From positions 78,001-142,000 of the forward strand of contig CAMXCT020006756.1 in the NCBI GenBank assembly GCA_947184155.2: a DNA stretch of 64,000 bases. The letters run 5' to 3'. A program made the translations under genes and the position numbers. Positions 16,407-53,275 of this stretch are shown one piece after another (the stretch's first letter is position 1; the number at the start of each line of letters is the position of its first letter). The DNA is from Cladocopium goreaui. Taxonomy: Eukaryota > Sar > Dinophyceae > Suessiales > Symbiodiniaceae. Below the pieces are notes generated by a model. That model made no database searches. It saw only the letters and a program-made list of their open reading frames with translations, and was not told the DNA's origin.

Positions 16407-19400
16407 ATGGGTTCATGGTGGGAGTTTTTTTTTTTCAAACGGCGTGTGGCATATGAAGTCTTCGGAGCCAAACCAGGGTGTGAGCTTGTGTACGACTCCC
16501 TCACTGTAGGAAATCAAACAGTGGGACTTTGGAAGTCTACCAGAGCCGTCCATGCGTGTCATTTGGCTCGCAGTATGTTGCGACTTTGCGAAACCAGATT
16601 TGATCTCACATGTGATCATTTCTTTTGCCCAGGCCACAAAGGTGAACCAGGGAACGAGTTGGTTGACACTCTTGCGCGCTGCGCTGCTCTGGGCAGCCCA
16701 CTGCAAGACTGGCAACACTTCATTTCCTTCACACAAAAAAGCCAGTTTGTCAAAGCTATTGAATGGGCTTGGATGTTGCACACACAATGGAAAGATGCAG
16801 AGTTAGCCAGCACAAGTTGGACGTGTCCAGCGAGGCCGTCCACGCAGCCTGATCTGCATGTGTTGCCGTCTAGTGACAGCATTGACAGGAATCCCAGCGT
16901 CCTACAATTTACATTCCAGTTGAGAGTCGCCACTTGCAACATTCTCACACTCAAGAGCAGATCGGCAAAACAACACTGTACTATCACGGGGACAGATGGC
17001 CCTGCAAGGCTTGAGTGGATTTTGAGAAGTTATGATGATTTGGGTATCCACATTTTTGCGCTTCAGGAAACCAGGATGCGTACAGTAAAGCAGACAGCTG
17101 ATGATAGGTACCACCTGATCAAGAGCCCAGCAAATGAGTCGGGCCAATTTGGCATGCTGGTTGGTATTTCCAAGACCCATCCTTTTGCTAGCCAAACTGC
17201 AATTGAAGGAACGGAATCAACAAGTGACCTCTTCTTTCAAGAAAGTGATTTCACTATTGTTGCGACCACACCGCGCTCATTGATTCTCAAAGTGCAACGG
17301 ATAGGGTTTCGCTGTATTATCATCGCTGCCCATGCTCCGCATACAGGTGCTGCGCTGTTGGAGATTGAAGAGTTCTGGCACTCCATTGATTCAAGTATCC
17401 CTCATGCTTTTCATGATTGGCCCAAACTTGTGCTTGCAGACGCCAATTGCCGGCTTGGTAGCCAACCATGTGACCGCATAGGTGACTGGCAAGCTGAAAT
17501 CATGACAGACAAAAGTGAACCCTTTGCTCAATTTGTGGCGCGATCAGATGTGTTTTTGCCATCCACCTTTGAAAGACTGCACACGGGAGAAGGTGGAACG
17601 TGGCAACATCAGTCTGGATTGTGGACGCACAACGATTATATTGGTATTCCCTGTTCATGGCCTTTGCAGACATGCATGTCCTGGATCCCAAGTGAAGTTG
17701 ATTTCTCGATGATTAAGGAAGATCACCGCACAGTGTGTGCGGAAGTTGCGTGGACGATTTGTGTTGCCTCTGACAGTCGTTCTACCAATCAACGTGGCAA
17801 GCCTCATGTTTATGAATTTTGCCCACGCAAAATTGGGAGGTGTGCAGGCAGCACATATCCGGATTTTACCGTTGATGTTCACACTGATGCTATTAACATC
17901 CAGGAAACACTGCTGACATGTAGAGACAAGAAGAAGAAAGCGCCCAGGAAGCCACGCAAAGAGACTCTTTCTGCACATACATGGGAGTTGATCTGCACCA
18001 AGAAGCAATGGCGCAATAAGCTCCACGAGAACACCAGTCTGCGGAAATCTACCCTGCAAGCTATGGTTTTCGCTGCTTGGCGACTTAGTCGCTGGGAACA
18101 AGATGCCACTCCGCATGTCCAGGGTTTTGACCACCTTCTTTGCCAATTGGATTGTGCCATTGCACAAGCTCTGCATTGGTTTCAACGGCTAGGCGCAGAG
18201 GTGACACGTGCTCTGCGGCATGATGACCGAATGTTCTTTGCTGGACTTATGCAGGAGGCGTCGGACTTCTTGGCGCCAAATCATGTCAAAGATATGTGGA
18301 GAATCATTCGTCGCCACTTGCCAAAATTCCGATCTCGCAAGATAGGTCAAAATCCGCAGAAGATTGAGCTTTTGAAGGATCAGTGGGTCCCTTATTTTCA
18401 GCAGTTGGAGGTTGGTGCAACTCATGATGCTGCTGTGATTGTCGAGACCTGCCACGCACGCCAGAAGAACATGCCCATTGTGCAGTATGACTTCCAGCTT
18501 GATGATCTCCCCTCGCTCATTGAAGTTGAAGATGCTATTCGGACTACCCAGCCAGACAGATCTACAGGGTTCGATCCCCTACCGTCTAGCCTTTTCCGAC
18601 GGCATGCAGTGGATATTGCCAAGATGTACTTTCCTTTAATTTTAAAGCAGTGTTTATGGCAGAGCGAACCACTAGCTTCGAAAGGAGGTCAAATGGCAGT
18701 AATCCACAAGCGAGGATCCTCCTTGCTAGCTGAGAACTACAGGGGTATCATGCTTTTGCCCACCATAGCTAAGCGATTTCATGCCCTGATCCGCTCACGT
18801 TTGATGGAACGTCTGCACAGACAGAGACCAGCCGGTCAGATTGGAGGGTTTGCTCATATGCAGGTCCCTTTTGGATCACAGCTTCTTCAAGTCTTTGGAC
18901 GTATTATGGATGCACAAGGGTTTTCATCGGCCATTGTCTTCTTTGATTTGACTAATGCGTTCCATAGACTTCTCAGGGAACTAGTCTCGGGCATCCATGT
19001 GCCGGAGGCTATTGATGAAGTGTTGCAAGCATTAGATGCTGAAGGGGTGCCGGTGCAGGAGGTTGCAACCTTGCTCGACCTGCCCCATCTGTTGACGCAA
19101 CTGAATGCCCCACCTTTTTTGATCCAGCTGTTGCAAGATTTGCATACCGATACATGGCTCAAAGCTCCGGGCGATGAGCGGTTCATTATCACCAGACGTG
19201 GCACACGTCCCGGCTCCCCGCTAGCAGACTGTATCTTTCATATCCTGATGGCAGATGTTACGAAAGATATCAACTCCTGGATGGGAGAGCAGGTGGAATT
19301 CCAGAACATCCTCACAGAGCTGGATATTGAGATTGAAAGCATTGTCTGGGCAGATGATCTGGCCTTGCCGCTTGCCTCTAAGCATGCAGACCACCTTCCC

Positions 19401-22226
19401 CAGTTGATTGAGTCTGCAATTCGCCATGTTCATCGAGTTTTCTTGCAGCGGGGGTTTTTATTAAATTTTAGCAAAGGGAAGACTAGTGTGGTAGCCACCT
19501 TCAAAGGGAGCGGAGCAGCGGAGTTGCGCCGACAATATCAATTGAGTGATCGACCAGGATTCACCCTGGCATTAGGGGACCAGGAAGCCTTCATCCATTT
19601 TGTTGCACATTACAAGCATCTGGGAACCATCTTCAGTTCTTCCCATTCACTGGATCTGGAGATTTCTACTCGCATCGGGATGGCCCGAGGAGCATTTGCT
19701 CAGTTGGCAGCACCTGTGCTTTGCAACAAACACATTCCTGTGCACACCAGATTGCAGATGTATCGTGCCCTAGTGGAGTCGAAATTGTACTTTGGATTAG
19801 GAGCCTGGGCACCCACCACAGCCCGGCAGAACGCTAAAATCCAAACTGCAGTGCTTTACATGTTAAAGCGTGTGTTGAGGCTCAGCAAGGAAGAGCACGA
19901 AACGCTTACCACAGCCGATGTTTTCCATCGAGCCGGCCACAGCTTCCCTAGAGCAAGAATGGCATTGGATAGACTCCTCTATGCACAAAAACTTTGGCAG
20001 CATGGCCCTGCCATGCTCCAGCACATTCTGCATATTGAAGAAGGTCTGCGCACAGATTCCTGGCTTTTCGGATTGAAACATGACCTTGCTTGGCTGCACC
20101 AGCTTGAGCCTGATTTGCTTCCTTGGCTTGGTTCGTGCAATGATCTGACTCATGTCTTTGATTTCTGGCAATCAGGGAATCGCCAATGGCGAGTGCGAGT
20201 GAAAAGAGCATGGTCTCGGTTCCTCATGCAAGAAAACATGACTAATAGCTTGTTTTCTCTACACAAGACTTTTTTCAAAGTTTTCGAGCAACATGGAGGT
20301 GCCTTCTTGCCCTCACCGTTTTCGGCATCAGACCATACGAGACAGGAGTTCCAATGCCATTGCGGCAAGAGTTTTTCCAGTCAGCAAGGATTAGCTTGCC
20401 ACCAACGGCAGAAACATCAGCAGTTTGCGCCAGAGCATAAATTCCTCGTAGGAGAGACGTGTCCTGCTTGCCTGAAATTCTTTTGGACAAAACAAAGATT
20501 GTATTTGCACCTGGCGTATGTTTCTAGACGCACAGGGCTCAATCGATGCTTTCAGCAACTTAGTCAGCAAGGATTTCAGGATTTGCCCAATGGCCAATGC
20601 TTTCAAGTCAAGCCTTTGGAGGTTAGAGGATTAGCTCGTGTGGAAACTGTCCAGGCGCAAGGACCACTTTTGCTTGCAGATGATCATCGAGCACAAGAGA
20701 TCCAGCACCTTACTCAAGAGCTGGAGACTCTTCAGAAGGAACTGCAAGTTGATATGCCCGAAGATGCTGGTCAAGCCTCTCTCAGATTGCGACAGTCCTT
20801 GTCCAAGACTACAGAGGAATGGTTTAGTGATTTTCAGGTTGCAGGTTTTGATGAGAGCTTGGCGGAAGATTTACCTGATCGCTGGATCCTTTTGCTGGAT
20901 GATGCTGATGGGAACTTTGGGCCATGGTTTGAGGCTGAGTTTATGCGATGGGGACAAGATGATTTGCCAGATGTGATCGCCGAATTTCTTGATGGTAGGG
21001 CAGAAATTTTGGTTGATGAAGCATTCTGTGAACTGACATCTGTTTTCCCACGATTTGAGCTCTTGCAAAAGCGAACCGCTCTCCAAGCCAGATTGCGACG
21101 CCTCACTGTTGAAATGCAGACCCGCTTTCCGCACAGAGACGTGCGAAAAGGATCAGCAAATGTTCAAGAAAGAGCTGCTACTGCAGCGTATGTACCCGCA
21201 CAGTTTGATGAGCAAACAGCCCTTTTTCAGCAAGTTCGAACAACACGCTGGTTGGACCTTCCTCATGAAAAGAAGGTTCCCCTTTGGAGCCAGCCTAACT
21301 GTAAGCCAATTTTCTTGATCGCACATCTTTTCAGTGGTAGAAGAAGGGAAGGAGACATCCATGCACATCTTGCGAGATGGGCAGCAGCCGTAAATTTGCA
21401 GGTCATTGTACTCTCGTTGGACACTGCGAATTCTGCGACGATGGGTAATCTCCTCCTTCAGTCAGTGACATGGCAACAGCTCATCCGATTATATAGGGAA
21501 GGACGCATTGCGGCTACCGTTGCAGGAGCCCCATGTGAGACCTGGTCTGCAGCCAGGCACCAGCCCATTGTAATCGAGGGCGATGCAGAGGGTTCCCATG
21601 GACGAGGACCGAGACCGCTGAGAAGTGCTGAGAGAATTTTTGGATTGCAGGGACTGACGAAACGTGAGCTCAGGCAGCTCAGTCAAGGCACACATTTTTA
21701 TTTACAAACCACCATTACCATTGCTTGGGCAATTTGCACTGGGGGACTGTATGTAAGCGAACATCCAGCCCCGCCGGATGACCCACAAATTGCAAGTGTT
21801 TGGACTGCTCCGTGGACGGAACTTTTGCGTCAACATCCGGAAGTCGCCCTTCACATTATGAGCCAGTGGAAGTGGGGTTGCGCTATGATCAAGCCCACAG
21901 GGCTTCTGGCGCTGAGGATGCCGCGTTTTGCTCAGTCAATGTATCGCAGACAGCTCCCTGAGGCTACCCGGCCGACACAGGTTGCGATAGGAAAAGGGCC
22001 TGATGGGCTTTTCAGAACAAGTGCCTTGAAAGAATACCCAGAACCCTTTTGCGCTGCGATTGCAGGTGCAGTCATTGATGAGTTGTACAGACGCAATCGT
22101 AGTAGCCTGTGCACACCAGTGGATCCCCCGGAGGACGACCTAGTACAGTGGGTCATTGAAGCAGAGAAACTCTGTGGGCAAATCCGTGCAGATGCCACGT
22201 GGTTGCCCGACTATCAAGGTCGTTAA
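16407..22226 (+). CDS. LINE polyprotein: RNase H remnant, endonuclease, RT, zinc fingers, C5-MTase-like domain
   Basis: 1939 codons without a break. The first 15 residues (MGSWWEFFFFKRRVA) are read from host flank and the duplicated site; element coding starts at residue 16. Residues about 25-95 look like the second half of an RNase H fold (VYDS at D30, GHKGEPGNELVD ending at D87). Residues 172-450 form an APE-type endonuclease: N178, LQETR with E221, DANCRLG with D344/N346, and EDH at 437-439. Residues 700-1030 are the reverse transcriptase: FFDLTNAF with D846, GTRPGSPLAD, and WADD at 980-983. Residues 1317-1372 hold two zinc-finger-like motifs (CHCGKSF...CHQRQKH and CPAC...H). A charged segment follows. 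Residues about 1634-1890 resemble a C5 cytosine methyltransferase: LFSG at 1641, APCETWS with C1710, SEHP with E1785. The RT and endonuclease motifs are intact, so the copy could be active for those steps. That is inference. Confidence 0.88.
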   Translation: MGSWWEFFFFKRRVAYEVFGAKPGCELVYDSLTVGNQTVGLWKSTRAVHACHLARSMLRLCETRFDLTCDHFFCPGHKGEPGNELVDTLARCAALGSPLQDWQHFISFTQKSQFVKAIEWAWMLHTQWKDAELASTSWTCPARPSTQPDLHVLPSSDSIDRNPSVLQFTFQLRVATCNILTLKSRSAKQHCTITGTDGPARLEWILRSYDDLGIHIFALQETRMRTVKQTADDRYHLIKSPANESGQFGMLVGISKTHPFASQTAIEGTESTSDLFFQESDFTIVATTPRSLILKVQRIGFRCIIIAAHAPHTGAALLEIEEFWHSIDSSIPHAFHDWPKLVLADANCRLGSQPCDRIGDWQAEIMTDKSEPFAQFVARSDVFLPSTFERLHTGEGGTWQHQSGLWTHNDYIGIPCSWPLQTCMSWIPSEVDFSMIKEDHRTVCAEVAWTICVASDSRSTNQRGKPHVYEFCPRKIGRCAGSTYPDFTVDVHTDAINIQETLLTCRDKKKKAPRKPRKETLSAHTWELICTKKQWRNKLHENTSLRKSTLQAMVFAAWRLSRWEQDATPHVQGFDHLLCQLDCAIAQALHWFQRLGAEVTRALRHDDRMFFAGLMQEASDFLAPNHVKDMWRIIRRHLPKFRSRKIGQNPQKIELLKDQWVPYFQQLEVGATHDAAVIVETCHARQKNMPIVQYDFQLDDLPSLIEVEDAIRTTQPDRSTGFDPLPSSLFRRHAVDIAKMYFPLILKQCLWQSEPLASKGGQMAVIHKRGSSLLAENYRGIMLLPTIAKRFHALIRSRLMERLHRQRPAGQIGGFAHMQVPFGSQLLQVFGRIMDAQGFSSAIVFFDLTNAFHRLLRELVSGIHVPEAIDEVLQALDAEGVPVQEVATLLDLPHLLTQLNAPPFLIQLLQDLHTDTWLKAPGDERFIITRRGTRPGSPLADCIFHILMADVTKDINSWMGEQVEFQNILTELDIEIESIVWADDLALPLASKHADHLPQLIESAIRHVHRVFLQRGFLLNFSKGKTSVVATFKGSGAAELRRQYQLSDRPGFTLALGDQEAFIHFVAHYKHLGTIFSSSHSLDLEISTRIGMARGAFAQLAAPVLCNKHIPVHTRLQMYRALVESKLYFGLGAWAPTTARQNAKIQTAVLYMLKRVLRLSKEEHETLTTADVFHRAGHSFPRARMALDRLLYAQKLWQHGPAMLQHILHIEEGLRTDSWLFGLKHDLAWLHQLEPDLLPWLGSCNDLTHVFDFWQSGNRQWRVRVKRAWSRFLMQENMTNSLFSLHKTFFKVFEQHGGAFLPSPFSASDHTRQEFQCHCGKSFSSQQGLACHQRQKHQQFAPEHKFLVGETCPACLKFFWTKQRLYLHLAYVSRRTGLNRCFQQLSQQGFQDLPNGQCFQVKPLEVRGLARVETVQAQGPLLLADDHRAQEIQHLTQELETLQKELQVDMPEDAGQASLRLRQSLSKTTEEWFSDFQVAGFDESLAEDLPDRWILLLDDADGNFGPWFEAEFMRWGQDDLPDVIAEFLDGRAEILVDEAFCELTSVFPRFELLQKRTALQARLRRLTVEMQTRFPHRDVRKGSANVQERAATAAYVPAQFDEQTALFQQVRTTRWLDLPHEKKVPLWSQPNCKPIFLIAHLFSGRRREGDIHAHLARWAAAVNLQVIVLSLDTANSATMGNLLLQSVTWQQLIRLYREGRIAATVAGAPCETWSAARHQPIVIEGDAEGSHGRGPRPLRSAERIFGLQGLTKRELRQLSQGTHFYLQTTITIAWAICTGGLYVSEHPAPPDDPQIASVWTAPWTELLRQHPEVALHIMSQWKWGCAMIKPTGLLALRMPRFAQSMYRRQLPEATRPTQVAIGKGPDGLFRTSALKEYPEPFCAAIAGAVIDELYRRNRSSLCTPVDPPEDDLVQWVIEAEKLCGQIRADATWLPDYQGR
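16441..16451. repeat. Left target-site duplication of the LINE
   Basis: The 11-mer GGCGTGTGGCA here is repeated exactly at 22318-22328, just after the 3' tail of the retroelement. Bases flanking the two copies differ, so the match is bounded. Confidence 0.75.
21300..22100 (+). other. C5 cytosine methyltransferase-like domain of the LINE ORF
   Basis: Sub-region of the ORF. AHLFSG (F1642) corresponds to motif I of C5 methyltransferases. GAPCETWSAAR corresponds to motif IV, with C1710 as the would-be nucleophile, 68 residues later; in M.HhaI the spacing from F18 to C81 is 63. LYVSEHP (E1785) corresponds to motif VI ENV. LKEYPEPFCAAIAGAV corresponds to the motif X helix. The second glycine of motif I is replaced (FSGRR), and about 40 extra residues lie between motifs IV and VI. 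SAM binding and catalysis are therefore uncertain. An alternative is a related Rossmann domain that keeps the PC motif for another use. Confidence 0.6.
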
Positions 22227-22317
22227 GGGCCGGTGTGCAATTCGACGCATGTTTTTGTCAATTCGATGCTGACTGCGGCAAGGGTACGACCCTTTCAAGC
22301 GCTTAATGAAATGAAAT
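22227..22317 (+). other. LINE 3' UTR and tail
   Basis: 91 bases from the stop codon to the right target duplication, ending in AATGAAATGAAAT. No poly(A). The short A-rich pentamer tail is of the kind used by several non-LTR clades for RT recognition. Confidence 0.65.
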
Positions 22318-22328
22318 GGCGTGTGGCA
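22318..22328. repeat. Right target-site duplication of the LINE
   Basis: Exact copy of the 11-mer at 16441-16451. Confidence 0.75.
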
Positions 22329-47984: not shown

Positions 47985-48232
47985 ATACATATAAATACAT
48001 ATAAATACATACAAATACATACGAATACATACGAATACATACGAATACACACAAATACATACAAATACATACAAATACATACACATGCATACAAATACAT
48101 ACAAATACATACAAATACATACAAATACATACAAACATACAAACATACAAACAAACATACATACATACCTACATACCTACATACCTACATACCTACATAC
48201 CTACATACCTACATACCTACATACCTACATAC
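47985..48232. repeat. ATACAAATAC and ACATACCT tetramer-based array
   Basis: (ATACAAATAC)n from 47990 to 48130, changing to (ACATACCT)n from about 48160. Confidence 0.95.
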
Positions 48233-48545
48233 CTACATACCTGCATACCTGCATACCTGCATACCTGCATACCTGCATACCTGCATGATTGCATACCTGC
48301 ATACCTGCATACCTGCATACCTGCATACCTGCATACCTGCATACCTGCATACCTGCATACCTGCATACCTGCATACCTGCATACCTGCATACCTGCATAC
48401 CTGCATACCTGCATACCTGCATACCTGCATACCTGCATACCTGCATACCAGCATACCTGCATACCTGCATACCTGCATACCTGCATACCTGCATACCTGC
48501 ATACCTGCATACCTGCATACCTGCATACCTGCATACCTGCATACC
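48233..48545. repeat. ACCTGCAT octamer array, about 38 copies
   Basis: Nearly perfect tandem octamer with two interruptions (GATTGCAT near 48287, ACCAGCAT near 48448). Every frame on both strands is open and gives low-complexity frames that look like proteins of 97-161 residues. These are artefacts. Confidence 0.97.
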
Positions 48546-49314
48546 TACATACCTACATACCTACATACCTACCTACCTACCTACATACCTACATACCTAC
48601 ATACCTACATACCTACATACCTACATACATAATAATATACATACATACCTACATACCTACATACCTACATACCTGCATACCTACATACCTACATACATAC
48701 ATACATACATATACATACATATACATACATATACATACATATACATACATATACATACATATAAATACATATAAATACATATAAATACATATACATACAT
48801 ATAAATACATAAATACATAAATACATATACATATACATACATACATACATACATACATACATAGATACATACATATATACATACATATATACATACATAT
48901 AAATACATATAAATACATATAAATACATATAAATACATATAAATACATATAAATACATAAATAGATATGAATACATATAAATACATACAAATACATACAA
49001 ATACATACAAATACATCATACATACATACATACATACATGCATACATAGTTACATAGTTACATAGTTACATAGTTACATAGTTACATACCTACATACCTG
49101 CCTACCTGCCTACCTACCTACATACCTACATACCTACATACCTACATACCTACATACCTACCTACCTACCTACCTACCTACATACATACATACATACATA
49201 CATACATACATAACTAACATACATACATACAGACAGACAGACAGACGGACATACAGACATACAGACAGACAGACAGACATACATACACATACATACATAT
49301 ACATACATACATAC

Positions 49315-49353
<39 letters not shown>

Positions 49354-49424
49354 CATACATATACACATGCATGTACATATACATATACATATACATATAC
49401 ACATGCATATACATATACATGTAC

Positions 49425-49455
<31 letters not shown>

Positions 49456-49490
49456 CATGTATATATATATACACATGTAATATGTATATG
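48546..49490. repeat. Mixed CATA/CCTA/CAGA tetramer arrays
   Basis: Successive blocks of ACATACCT, ATACATAC, ATAAATAC, GTTACATA (49045-49087), CCTA, CAGA (49229-49278) and ATACAC, ending in TA runs. Non-coding. Confidence 0.95.
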
Positions 49491-49559
49491 TACATGTTTG
49501 AGAGACCTTTCTGTACTATTTGACGGCTGAAGATTCCTTCCGAATCCCCTTCACATATG

Positions 49560-49700
49560 TATATTTTATAGACATTTTAATATAGGTAGCATTTGTGTAT
49601 AGTGTATGCACATATATATATGTACACGTATTTTGCGTATGTATACTGTCTATAGATATATATATATACATACACACACATATTTACACATACAGATACC
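49560..49700. repeat. Short TATACATACACACA tract
   Basis: Residual simple-sequence DNA after the large array. Confidence 0.6.
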
Positions 49701-49750
49701 ACATATCCCTTGGTTGGTTCAAGTCCCTGGTTCTTTCCTCGGTGCCCCAG

Positions 49751-49854
49751 GACAGCGAATCGGTCCAGTCGGACTTGGACGAGTCAACCACGGGCAGCGC
49801 CGACGGCGCGTTGCCTATGCTTTTGCCGCTGGGATGTCGTGATATTCCTGGGAG
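49751..49854 (+). CDS. Probable exon (DSESVQSDLDESTTGSADGA)
   Basis: After GTGCCCCAG, DSESVQSDLDESTTGSADGA then LPMLLPLGCRDIPG, before GTTCCA. Acidic/serine-rich start. A second open frame gives an arginine-rich peptide and is less likely. Confidence 0.45.
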
Positions 49855-50424
49855 GGTTCCACAGTGGACGGGATATACTTGGCCAACATTTTGGATTATT
49901 TGGGAGTTGACAAAATGAGAATTTAGCCCTGAAAAATGGAGGTCGAAACAGCCAGGAGGTGGACTTCACCAAAAAGAATGGGGGGTTAACCTATGAGAAA
50001 CGTGTTCAGAATCTAGGAATTTAGGATGATTTCTCCATCAAAATGGACCTTTTTAGGATATTTCTGGATTCTGGACAAACCCAAATGAGGTAATTGAATC
50101 TGCAAACACAGCACGTATGAGAAAATTCTGTGGATTTGCTTTGCCAAACATTGCATCTGTTTTTTTTGGGACCACATATGTCATGTATATATATATATTA
50201 TATTACATATATATTATATTTATATCATATCGTATTAAATATATTATATCAAATATTTTATATACATGTTATATTATATATATACATTTACTTGTTTCTC
50301 TTGAGCTTTTGAATCACATTCCATCCTGTTGGATTTAGCATCATTTTCCAATTTTTGGATGGTCATGGATTGATTGGGGCATCCCCCAGTTTGAGACAAA
50401 CCAAATCACACAACTATATACAAC

Positions 50425-53062
50425 TATAAATACACATACACATACATATACATTATACATATACATTATACATATACATTATACATATACATTATACATA
50501 TACATTATACATATACATTATACATATACATTTTACATATACATTATACATATACATTATACATATACATTATACATATACATTATACATTATACAGTAT
50601 ACATTATACATTATACATATACATTATACATATACATTATACATATACATTATACATATACATTATACATATACATTATACAGTATACATTATACAGTAT
50701 ACATTATACATTATACATTATACATATACATTATACATATACATTATACATATACATTATACATATACATTATACATATACATTATACAGTATACATTAT
50801 ACAGTATACATTATACATTATACATTATACATATACATTATACATATACATTATACATATACATTATACATATACATTATACATATACATTATACATATA
50901 CATTATACATATACATTATACATATACATTATACATATACATTATACATATACATTATACATATACATTATACATACATTATACATATACATTATACATA
51001 TACATTATACATATACATTATACATTATACATTATACATATACATTATACATATACATTATACATATACATTATACATATACATTATACATATACATTAT
51101 ACATATACATTATACATATACATTATACATATACATTATACAGTATACATTATACAGTATACATTATACATTATACATATACATTATACAGTATACATTA
51201 TACATTATACATATACATATACATTATACATATACATTATACAGTATACATTATACATATACATTACATTATACATATACATTATACATATACATTATAC
51301 ATATACATTATACAGTATACATATACATTATACATTATACATATACATTATACATATACATTATACATATACATTATACATTATACATTATACATTATAC
51401 ATATACATTATACATTATTATACATATACATTATACATATACATTATACATATACATTATACAGTATACATTATACATATACATATACATTATACATATA
51501 CATTATACATATACATTATACATATACATTATACATATACATTATACAGTATACATTATACATATACATTATACATTATACATATACATTACATATACAT
51601 TATACATATACATTATACATATACATATACATTATACATTATACATTATACATATACATTATACATATACATTATACATATACATTACATATACATTATA
51701 CAGTATATACATTATACATATACATTATACATATACATTATACATATACATTATACACATACATTATACATATACATTATACATATACATTATACATATA
51801 CATTATACATATACATTATACATTATACATATACATTATACATATACATTATACATATACATTATACATATACATTATACATATACATTACATATACATT
51901 ATACATATACATTATACATATACATTATACAGTATACATTATACATATACATAATACATTATACATATACATTATACATATACAGTATACATTATACAGT
52001 ATACATATACATTATACATATACATTATACAGTATACATTATACAGTATACATTATACATTATACATATACATTATACATGTACATTATACAGTATACAT
52101 TATACATTATACATATACATTATACAGTATACATTATACATTATACATTATACATATACATTATACATATACATTATACAGTATACATTATACATATACA
52201 TTATACATTATACATATACATTATACATATACATTATACATATACATTATACAGTATACATTATACATATACATTATACATTATACATATACATTATACA
52301 TATACATTATACATATACATTATACATTATACATATACATTATACATATACATTATACATATACATTATACATTATACATTATACATTATACATTATACA
52401 TTATACATATACATTATACATATACATTTTACATATACATTATACATATACATTATACAGTATACATTATACATATACATATACATTATACATATACATT
52501 ATACATATACATTATACAGTATACATTATACATATACATTATACATTATACATATACATTATACATATACATTATACATATACATTATACATTATACATT
52601 ATACATATGCATTATACATATACATTATACATATACATTATACATTATACATATACATTATACAGTATACATTATACATTATACATATACATTATACATT
52701 ATACATATACATTATACATATACATTATACATTATACATTATACATTATACATATACATTATACAGTATACATTATACATTATACATATACATTATACAT
52801 TATACATATACATTATACATATACATTATACATTATACATATACATCATACATATACATTATACAGTATACAGTATACATTATACATATACATTATACAT
52901 TATACATATACATTATACATATACATTATACATTATACATTATACATATACATTATACATATACATTATACATACACTATACATTATACAGTATACATTA
53001 TACATATACATTATACATTATACATATACATTATACATATACATTATACATATACATTATAC
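50425..53062. repeat. 2.6-kb array of TACATA and TACATTA units
   Basis: Built from a hexamer TACATA and heptamers TACATTA and TACAGTA. The commonest period is 13 bases (TACATATACATTA). Runs of pure heptamer and TACAGTATACATTA pairs are interspersed. A 337-codon open frame at 52079-53092 is entirely repeat-encoded Tyr/Ile/His/Thr peptide and is not a gene. Confidence 0.97.
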
Positions 53063-53134
53063 ATTGTAATGTTTGTATATACATGTAAATAGTCTATAAA
53101 TATATAGATTAGTATACATACATATTACATATAT

Positions 53135-53275
53135 ATATATAAATACACATACATACATACATACATACATACATACATACATGACATGACATGACATGAC
53201 ATGACATGACATGACATGACATGACATTACATTACATTACATTACATTACATACATATATATATATATATAAATG
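53135..53275. repeat. (ACAT)n, (ATGAC)n and (ATTAC)n blocks
   Basis: Clean switches from ACATAC tetramers to about nine ATGAC pentamers, then about six ATTAC pentamers and a TA run. Confidence 0.95.

Follow-up and report, generated by a model that had tools for sequence, protein, structure and literature searches.

A conserved domain of predicted C5-methyltransferase fold at the end of a dinoflagellate LINE polyprotein

Introduction

Retroelements that carry a DNA methyltransferase (DNMT) have been described from dinoflagellates by de Mendoza et al. 2018 (PMC5890265), namely SymbioLINE-Dnmt and SymbioDIRS-Dnmt3, and the same paper reports unusual CG methylation across most of the genome of Symbiodinium. 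Herein, we describe a long interspersed nuclear element (LINE) of Cladocopium goreaui, an algal symbiont of corals, whose polyprotein ends in a domain of predicted C5-methyltransferase (C5-MTase) fold. It lies in a window of 64,000 nucleotides (contig CAMXCT020006756.1, positions 78,001 to 142,000 of the forward strand), on the contig numbered C6115 in our genome set (1.166 Gb, 6202 contigs); all coordinates below are those of the window.

The DNMT gene counts in PMC5890265 were based on the family PF00145, and the methyltransferase survey in PMC9998398 likewise began from it. Later papers (PMC12344493, PMC9998398, PMC11453091, PMC8045281, and PMC6338049) mention, in the portions available, the known retroelement cases or none. 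A methyltransferase at the C-terminus of the open reading frame (ORF) that encodes a LINE reverse transcriptase (RT) was not found described in the available portions of the open-access literature.

Predicted fold and conserved motifs of the C-terminal domain

An earlier reading of the DNA letters (the sequence-only reading) had placed a C5-MTase-like domain at 21300..22100, at the end of a 1939-aa LINE ORF. The location stands, but the domain is larger than proposed (21150-22223). The domain and its motifs are as follows, with conservation given over 117 aligned rows (the window's own included) and with a domain numbering in which C129 is C1710 and E204 is E1785.

21150..22223, + strand: C5-methyltransferase-fold domain, residues 1582-1939 (AlphaFold2, structure searches, profile comparison, conservation)
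21324..21347, + strand: motif I-like HLFSGRRR, residues 1640-1647 (F61, G63, and R64 each in 116/117 rows)
21414..21428, + strand: motif II-like SLDTA with an invariant Asp (D91, 117/117 rows), just past the second strand of the model
21444..21452, + strand: motif III-like GNL (position 100 is N in 78/117 rows and D in 39/117)
21525..21557, + strand: motif IV GAPCETWSAAR, residues 1707-1717, with the proposed nucleophile C1710 (C in 117/117 rows)
21609..21626, + strand: family-specific insert motif PRPLRS (P154 117/117, R155 115/117, R158 116/117 rows)
21756..21767, + strand: motif VI-like SEHP, residues 1784-1787, with E1785 (E204 in 116, H205 in 116, and P206 in 117 of 117 rows)
21864..21899, + strand: motif VIII-like Q..W.....KPT (Q239, K248, and T250 each in 116/117 rows)
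22026..22100, + strand: motif X-like helix, LKEYPEPFCAAIAG and following, from residue 1874 (model helix 298-317; K294 and Y296 each in 114/117 rows)

AlphaFold2 models the domain with a mean predicted local distance difference test (pLDDT) of 91.7 and a predicted template modelling score (pTM) of 0.91. When this model was searched against the PDB with Foldseek and with VIA-align, the 50 matches listed by each program were C5-MTase entries only. In a viral structure library the top matches were mostly cytosine MTases or unnamed proteins, and the lower ones included other proteins too (DNA polymerase, FtsJ-like methyltransferases, AAA-ATPase). The 43 residues between T250 and K294 hold one helix and short strands in the model, leaving no room for a target-recognition domain (TRD).

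The landmarks named by the sequence-only reading (LFSG, PC with C1710, E1785, and the motif X-like LKEYPEPFCAAIAG) are all present, in order and where it had put them, and its spacing of 68 residues between motifs I and IV is borne out (F1642 to C1710). The cysteine is the only invariant one among the seven of the domain, the preceding P1709 (P128) is likewise Pro in 117/117 rows, and S133 is Ser in 114/117. At 90% non-redundancy the figures hold (C1710 114/114, P1709 114/114, E1785 113/114), whereas the majority residue of the 350 columns has a median frequency of 0.45. The distance from Cys to Glu is 75 residues in the window and 66-77 in the commonest rows, with PRPLRS lying within the extra stretch; M.HhaI has 38 residues there. 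From Glu to Lys the spacing is 44 in 79 and 45 in 35 of the 117 rows, and M.HhaI has 44 residues between E119 and R163. Presumably, D91 and N/D100 match the motif II and motif III residues of that enzyme.

In short, the C-terminus of this LINE is, on the evidence of a predicted model and of family conservation, a real, conserved, and very divergent C5-MTase-fold domain that the profile libraries searched do not recognize. On conservation and structure together, we reject a chance resemblance to C5-MTases. The outcomes that would have spoken for another kind of domain, namely an unrelated fold or an unconserved PC motif and E1785, did not occur.

Relation to viral and canonical C5-methyltransferases

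Judged by its sequence, the domain is not a PF00145 DNMT. PF00145 has no match in it at E<=10 and is absent among the families listed for 48 scanned family members. A direct sequence search found no relative of the domain in Pfam, NCBIfam, or PHROG and no meaningful one in the PDB, the PHROG profiles matched it with 0 families, and neither GTDB genome contigs nor IMG/VR contigs yielded a confirmed relative.

A more distant relationship emerges from profile-profile comparison with short viral proteins. Three of the four tested score above the cut-off of PF00145, and 3/3 tested match PHROG 757 or PHROG 2882 ('DNA methyltransferase'). A first search pattern for this type had yielded 3 stretches and 0 methyltransferases; the set used here was picked by PC...S/T and W.IENP from 80 of at least 120 stretches, 74 of the 80 having a motif-bearing frame, of which 31 were kept for the PC motif and 43 dropped. 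Aligned with hhalign, the LINE family and these 31 proteins score 96.1% (E 3.4e-9, columns 56-304), with Cys on Cys and KPT on K-x-T along the path. The controls are clean: 0.1% with the viral profile reversed, 0.1% with the family reversed, 0.3% for the best of 20 column shuffles, and no more than 0.3% when the LINE family is compared with four further LINE domains. A subset of 4 short viral proteins reached 33.6%, over the motif IV stretch only. The viral group itself aligns with 12 canonical C5-MTases (11 phage, 1 dinoflagellate) at 98.2% (E 4e-14).

We also aligned the first 60 of the 117 family rows jointly with the 31 viral and 12 canonical proteins in three modes of MAFFT. In all three, C129 falls on the Cys of 31/31 viral and 12/12 canonical rows and E204 on the Glu of 31/31 viral rows, motifs for which the viral set was pre-selected (PC and W.IENP), whereas K248 and T250, at the motif VIII position that was not selected for, fall on K and T in 31/31 viral rows. 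E204 also meets the canonical Glu (12/12) in two of the modes, and K248 meets the Arg of 12/12 canonical enzymes in two of the three. The catalytic pair proposed from sequence is thereby recovered in both groups, for the canonical Glu in 2/3 modes. As a separate observation, some IMG/VR C5-methyltransferases vary at motif IV: L001, L003, and L004 read ECTNFS, where Glu replaces the Pro before the catalytic Cys, and L090 and L095 read PVC, with Val before it.

The LINE insertion, its relatives, and its copies

The element that carries the domain is made up as follows.

16407..22226, + strand: stop-free ORF of 1939 aa; its ATG and first 15 codons (16407-16451) are flanking DNA outside the LINE
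16452..22317, + strand: 5'-truncated LINE (non-LTR retrotransposon, LTR standing for long terminal repeat) insertion, from similarity to copies and the target-site duplication
16441..16451, no strand: 5' copy of the target-site duplication, 11 bp, GGCGTGTGGCA, a direct repeat abutting the element start
22318..22328, no strand: 3' copy of the target-site duplication, 11 bp, GGCGTGTGGCA, a direct repeat at the element end
16452..16682, + strand: RNase H domain, its N-terminal part lost to truncation (hidden Markov model (HMM) of relatives, E 1.2e-32)
16914..17780, + strand: endonuclease domain, of Exo_endo_phos type in relatives (HMM E 1.9e-135)
18498..19550, + strand: RT (PF00078 E 1.3e-6, 28.7 bits against a cut-off of 29.6; HMM of relatives)
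20343..20570, + strand: C2H2-like zinc-finger region (PF13894 E 0.1, below cut-off; conserved among relatives)
20748..21080, + strand: conserved helical linker domain of unknown function (HMM; a separate helical unit in a 500-aa model, pTM 0.68)

Copies on contigs C791 and C2634 are 96.6% and 97.0% identical to the window at the DNA level over about 5.87 kb, and the match starts at 16452 and ends at 22315-22318. Since the 11-bp repeat sits at these same ends, the insertion is a LINE cut at its 5' side within the RNase H domain. The stop-free frame of 1939 aa (16407-22226) is confirmed, with the correction that its first 15 codons (16407-16451) lie outside the LINE, which begins at 16452. RT and endonuclease in one ORF, a target-site duplication, and 5' truncation are all found, as in a non-LTR element. 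The RNase H assignment is supported by PF00075 in the longer relatives P0160, P0163, P0167, and P0168, and that of the endonuclease by PF03372, precomputed for six relatives among the matches listed; the Pfam scan gave no endonuclease match in the window's own ORF.

RNase H lies N-terminal to endonuclease and RT both in the window (16452-16682) and in the relatives P0142, P0160, P0163, and P0168; in LINEs it normally follows RT. P0163 has a further approximately 1350 aa N-terminal to RNase H, a stretch in which Pfam recognizes no domain at E<=0.1. Elsewhere in the window, 48000-53270 holds tandem arrays that are very rich in AT and strongly GC-skewed, with units such as ATACATT and ATACATAC; a 337-aa frame at 52079-53092 is this satellite read as codons. 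Scanning the window with Rfam and for tRNAs gave no hits.

Within the window ORF, the HMMs place the methyltransferase domain C-terminal to RT in the same frame. For its relatives, we used the methyltransferase HMM from the 117-row alignment, and for the other five domains HMMs built on 12 aligned relatives plus the window ORF. The sample comprised 119 long proteins (118 of 120 among the matches listed, out of 367 in all, plus the window ORF), its limit of about 1066 aa or more favoring fused forms. The order RNase H, endonuclease, RT, zinc finger, helical linker, and methyltransferase, complete or lacking N-terminal domains only, is kept in 109/119; RT lies upstream in 116/119, at least one further domain of the same LINE accompanies the methyltransferase in 119/119, and no more than 60 residues follow the methyltransferase in 111/119. 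The other 140 proteins among the matches listed (P0002-P0141) have the domain alone (46) or with linker, zinc finger, or RT (94), and six of them carry more than 150 residues upstream without a recognized LINE domain.

Copy numbers in the C. goreaui genome are lower bounds. There are at least 115 matches to the domain (from 114 scored candidates), and the HLFSGRRR pattern occurs at no fewer than 186 sites, against 4 for the reversed control. Open frames around copies reach 4442 aa; those at C378:210419, C2580:228470, C248:90838, and others measure 3600-4400 aa. The same genome has at least 125 PF00145 matches, none on contig C6115 among those listed, and the LINE family HMM matched none of 30 of these canonical loci. 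Canonical PF00145 methyltransferases are abundant there, mostly in stop-free frames and several with identical scores. In protein P0237 the LINE methyltransferase domain is directly followed by a canonical PF00145 methyltransferase (from aa 974); this is probably a fused gene model, and the adjacency of both kinds is worth noting.

The methyltransferase domain is under purifying selection. Ratios of non-synonymous to synonymous substitution rates (dN/dS) were taken over 30 domain copies (435 pairs, of which 407 had saturated dS and one was identical). Nine close pairs in five clusters (dS 0.02-0.24) give 0.06-0.12, and 15 of the 18 remaining pairs, with dS above 1.9, give 0.05-0.24. Between the window and the C791 copy, dN/dS is 0.09 over the whole ORF (148.5 synonymous and 47.5 non-synonymous differences) and 0.10 over the domain (24 and 8); the C2634 copy is frameshifted. 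Distances in RT and in the methyltransferase domain correlate (r 0.846, reached by 0/999 permutations; 101 of the 119 proteins, with both domains long enough), and their means are 0.57 and 0.58. The fusion thus appears, from these sequence distances, to be old and inherited together with RT.

Proposed function and alternative explanations

What the data show are the predicted fold, the conserved catalytic pair, the LINE context, the purifying selection, and the divergence in step with RT; catalysis, cytosine as the base, DNA rather than RNA as the substrate, the timing, and the benefit are what we infer. On balance, we take the domain to be a working C5-methyltransferase that would, in the course of target-primed reverse transcription, act on cytosines either in the newly made copy of the element or in the nicked target DNA. 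That it transfers methyl groups is the more secure part and seems quite probable from its residues, since it retains nucleophile and acid together with an acidic residue positioned as for the cofactor ribose. C1710 would attack C6 of the pyrimidine, E1785 would activate the flipped base, and the methyl group would come from S-adenosylmethionine. As there is no TRD and the fusion is fixed, substrate choice would fall to the tethered polyprotein, which may carry the domain to where target-primed reverse transcription takes place; there it would have new DNA, target DNA, and the RNA:DNA hybrid within reach. The new copy would thereby be marked like the CG-methylated host genome around it. DNA is mildly favored as the substrate, with RNA possible, because the nearest profile group carries the annotation DNA methyltransferase and because, in yeast, some related enzymes of retroelements do methylate DNA.

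Several points weigh against this reading. The catalytic domains of M.HhaI, DNMT1, DNMT3, and DNMT5 have FxGxG, ENV, QxRxR, and a TRD. In our family motif I reads F-S-G-R-R-R, lacking the second glycine of F-x-G-x-G, and motif VIII reads Q..W.GA..KPT, with K and T in place of the two canonical arginines of QxRxR, so that cofactor and base contacts must differ from those of canonical enzymes. The C5-MTase identity proposed from sequence is supported in fold and catalytic pair and is refined in that the domain has no PF00145 match, no room for a TRD, no second glycine in motif I, and no QxRxR in motif VIII. No canonical C5 profile matches the LINE domain by sequence: hhalign gave 8.1% against the 12 canonical C5-MTases (12 columns, motif IV stretch only), 2.4% against 4 sequences of its own genome (again motif IV only), and 0.04%, with no alignment, against a first mixed set (26 viral DNMTs plus one). 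Even the path to the viral group leaves E204 off ENP, as it does with the family-specific insert removed (96.7%) and with the C-terminal part alone (48.8%); the pairing of E1785 with ENP hence rests on MAFFT and strand order, not on hhalign. In the third MAFFT mode E204 meets the canonical Glu in 2/12 rows only, and across the viral rows no single residue stands consistently opposite G63 or D91. SymbioLINE-Dnmt, lastly, gave no DNA methylation in yeast, a result its authors deemed inconclusive while raising an RNA substrate (PMC5890265).

An element-specific CpG footprint was looked for in the window and not found (CpG ratio 0.62 in the element, 0.59 and 0.61 in the flanks), which counts against the proposal, and the copies show a modest excess of C-to-T change at CG sites. 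With CG methylation near-ubiquitous in the group, these data speak neither for nor against self-methylation.

Among the alternatives, one that is unlikely but deserves weight is an RNA cytosine-5 methyltransferase marking the element's own or host RNA in the ribonucleoprotein and thus affecting stability or packaging. DNMT2-like enzymes act on tRNA and LINE proteins bind their own RNA; the C5-MTase fold is common to DNA and RNA enzymes, and both the missing TRD and the missing CpG footprint would suit such an enzyme. RNA was moreover proposed for SymbioLINE-Dnmt (PMC5890265). However, PF00145, which would cover DNMT2 and DNMT6, is matched by 0/48 scanned members, and the nearest profile group consists of viral proteins that PHROGs label DNA methyltransferases (by annotation, not assay).

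Rather improbable as well is a C5-MTase fold that has lost catalysis and persists as a nucleic-acid or S-adenosylmethionine-sensing module that positions the polyprotein on DNA. The deviating FSGRRR of motif I and KPT of motif VIII would fit it, and the basic RRR could bind the phosphate backbone, yet the catalytic Cys is kept in 117/117 rows as the sole invariant among seven cysteines, conservation extends to the preceding Pro, the Glu, and the motif II-like Asp, and dN/dS is about 0.1. Already disfavored and most improbable is a remnant of gene capture that drifts without being needed: the window copy is 5'-truncated and presumably unable to move by itself, and the C2634 copy has its frameshift, but the 9 close pairs of family copies have dN/dS of 0.06-0.12 and the domain diverges as RT does (means 0.58 and 0.57, r 0.846). 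The same very low standing goes to convergence, whereby a Rossmann-like domain serving another function would have come by its PC and E through chance. The lack of a direct match to PF00145 or PDB sequences would allow this, but it is opposed by the finding of only C5-MTases among the PDB matches listed, by motifs I, IV, VI, and VIII in order, and by a profile link to the viral group with clean controls.

Comparison with known systems

The proposed working methyltransferase suggests a LINE that chemically marks nucleic acid while copying itself. More tentatively, a dinoflagellate LINE lineage may have captured a minimal, TRD-less C5-MTase, probably viral, as a C-terminal module of its RT polyprotein, which would choose the target so that each new copy or insertion site is methylated during its making; this capture would be separate from those of SymbioLINE-Dnmt and SymbioDIRS-Dnmt3. 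If so, it is present at roughly 180 or more places of one genome and was missed by PF00145-based surveys. The methyltransferase load of dinoflagellate genomes is probably underestimated, since surveys began from PF00145, yet 0/48 scanned family members match it. A minimal C5-MTase-like domain without TRD, joined to endonuclease and RT, opens a direct test of retrotransposon self-methylation, and the family may bear on the unusual genome-wide CG methylation of Symbiodinium (PMC5890265).

The short viral C5-MTase-like proteins (PHROG 757/2882) resemble the LINE domain in the PC of motif IV, the E-x-P of motif VI, the K-x-T replacing QxRxR, the small size, and the lack of a TRD. They differ in being about 200-280 aa long and encoded in viral contigs, in having ENP instead of EHP, and in lacking the PRPLRS insert and the basic RRR in motif I; unlike the LINE domain, those examined show no retroelement fusion. 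From M.HhaI, DNMT1, DNMT3, and DNMT5 the LINE domain is set apart by FSGRRR, EHP, KPT, and the missing TRD, and its sequence identity to them in the structural alignments is 8-13%.

SymbioDIRS-Dnmt3 and KnitGypsy-Dnmt3 likewise have a methyltransferase within the Pol polyprotein of a retroelement, but they belong to the DIRS and LTR Gypsy classes and carry Dnmt3 domains (PMC5890265). SymbioLINE-Dnmt shares with the window LINE a cytosine-methyltransferase-type domain in a dinoflagellate LINE with RT and target-site duplications (PMC5890265). Its DNMT is recognizable by PF00145 and mostly sits in an ORF upstream of the RT ORF (PMC5890265), whereas in the window LINE, where a PF00145 match was not found, the domain forms the C-terminus of the RT ORF itself.

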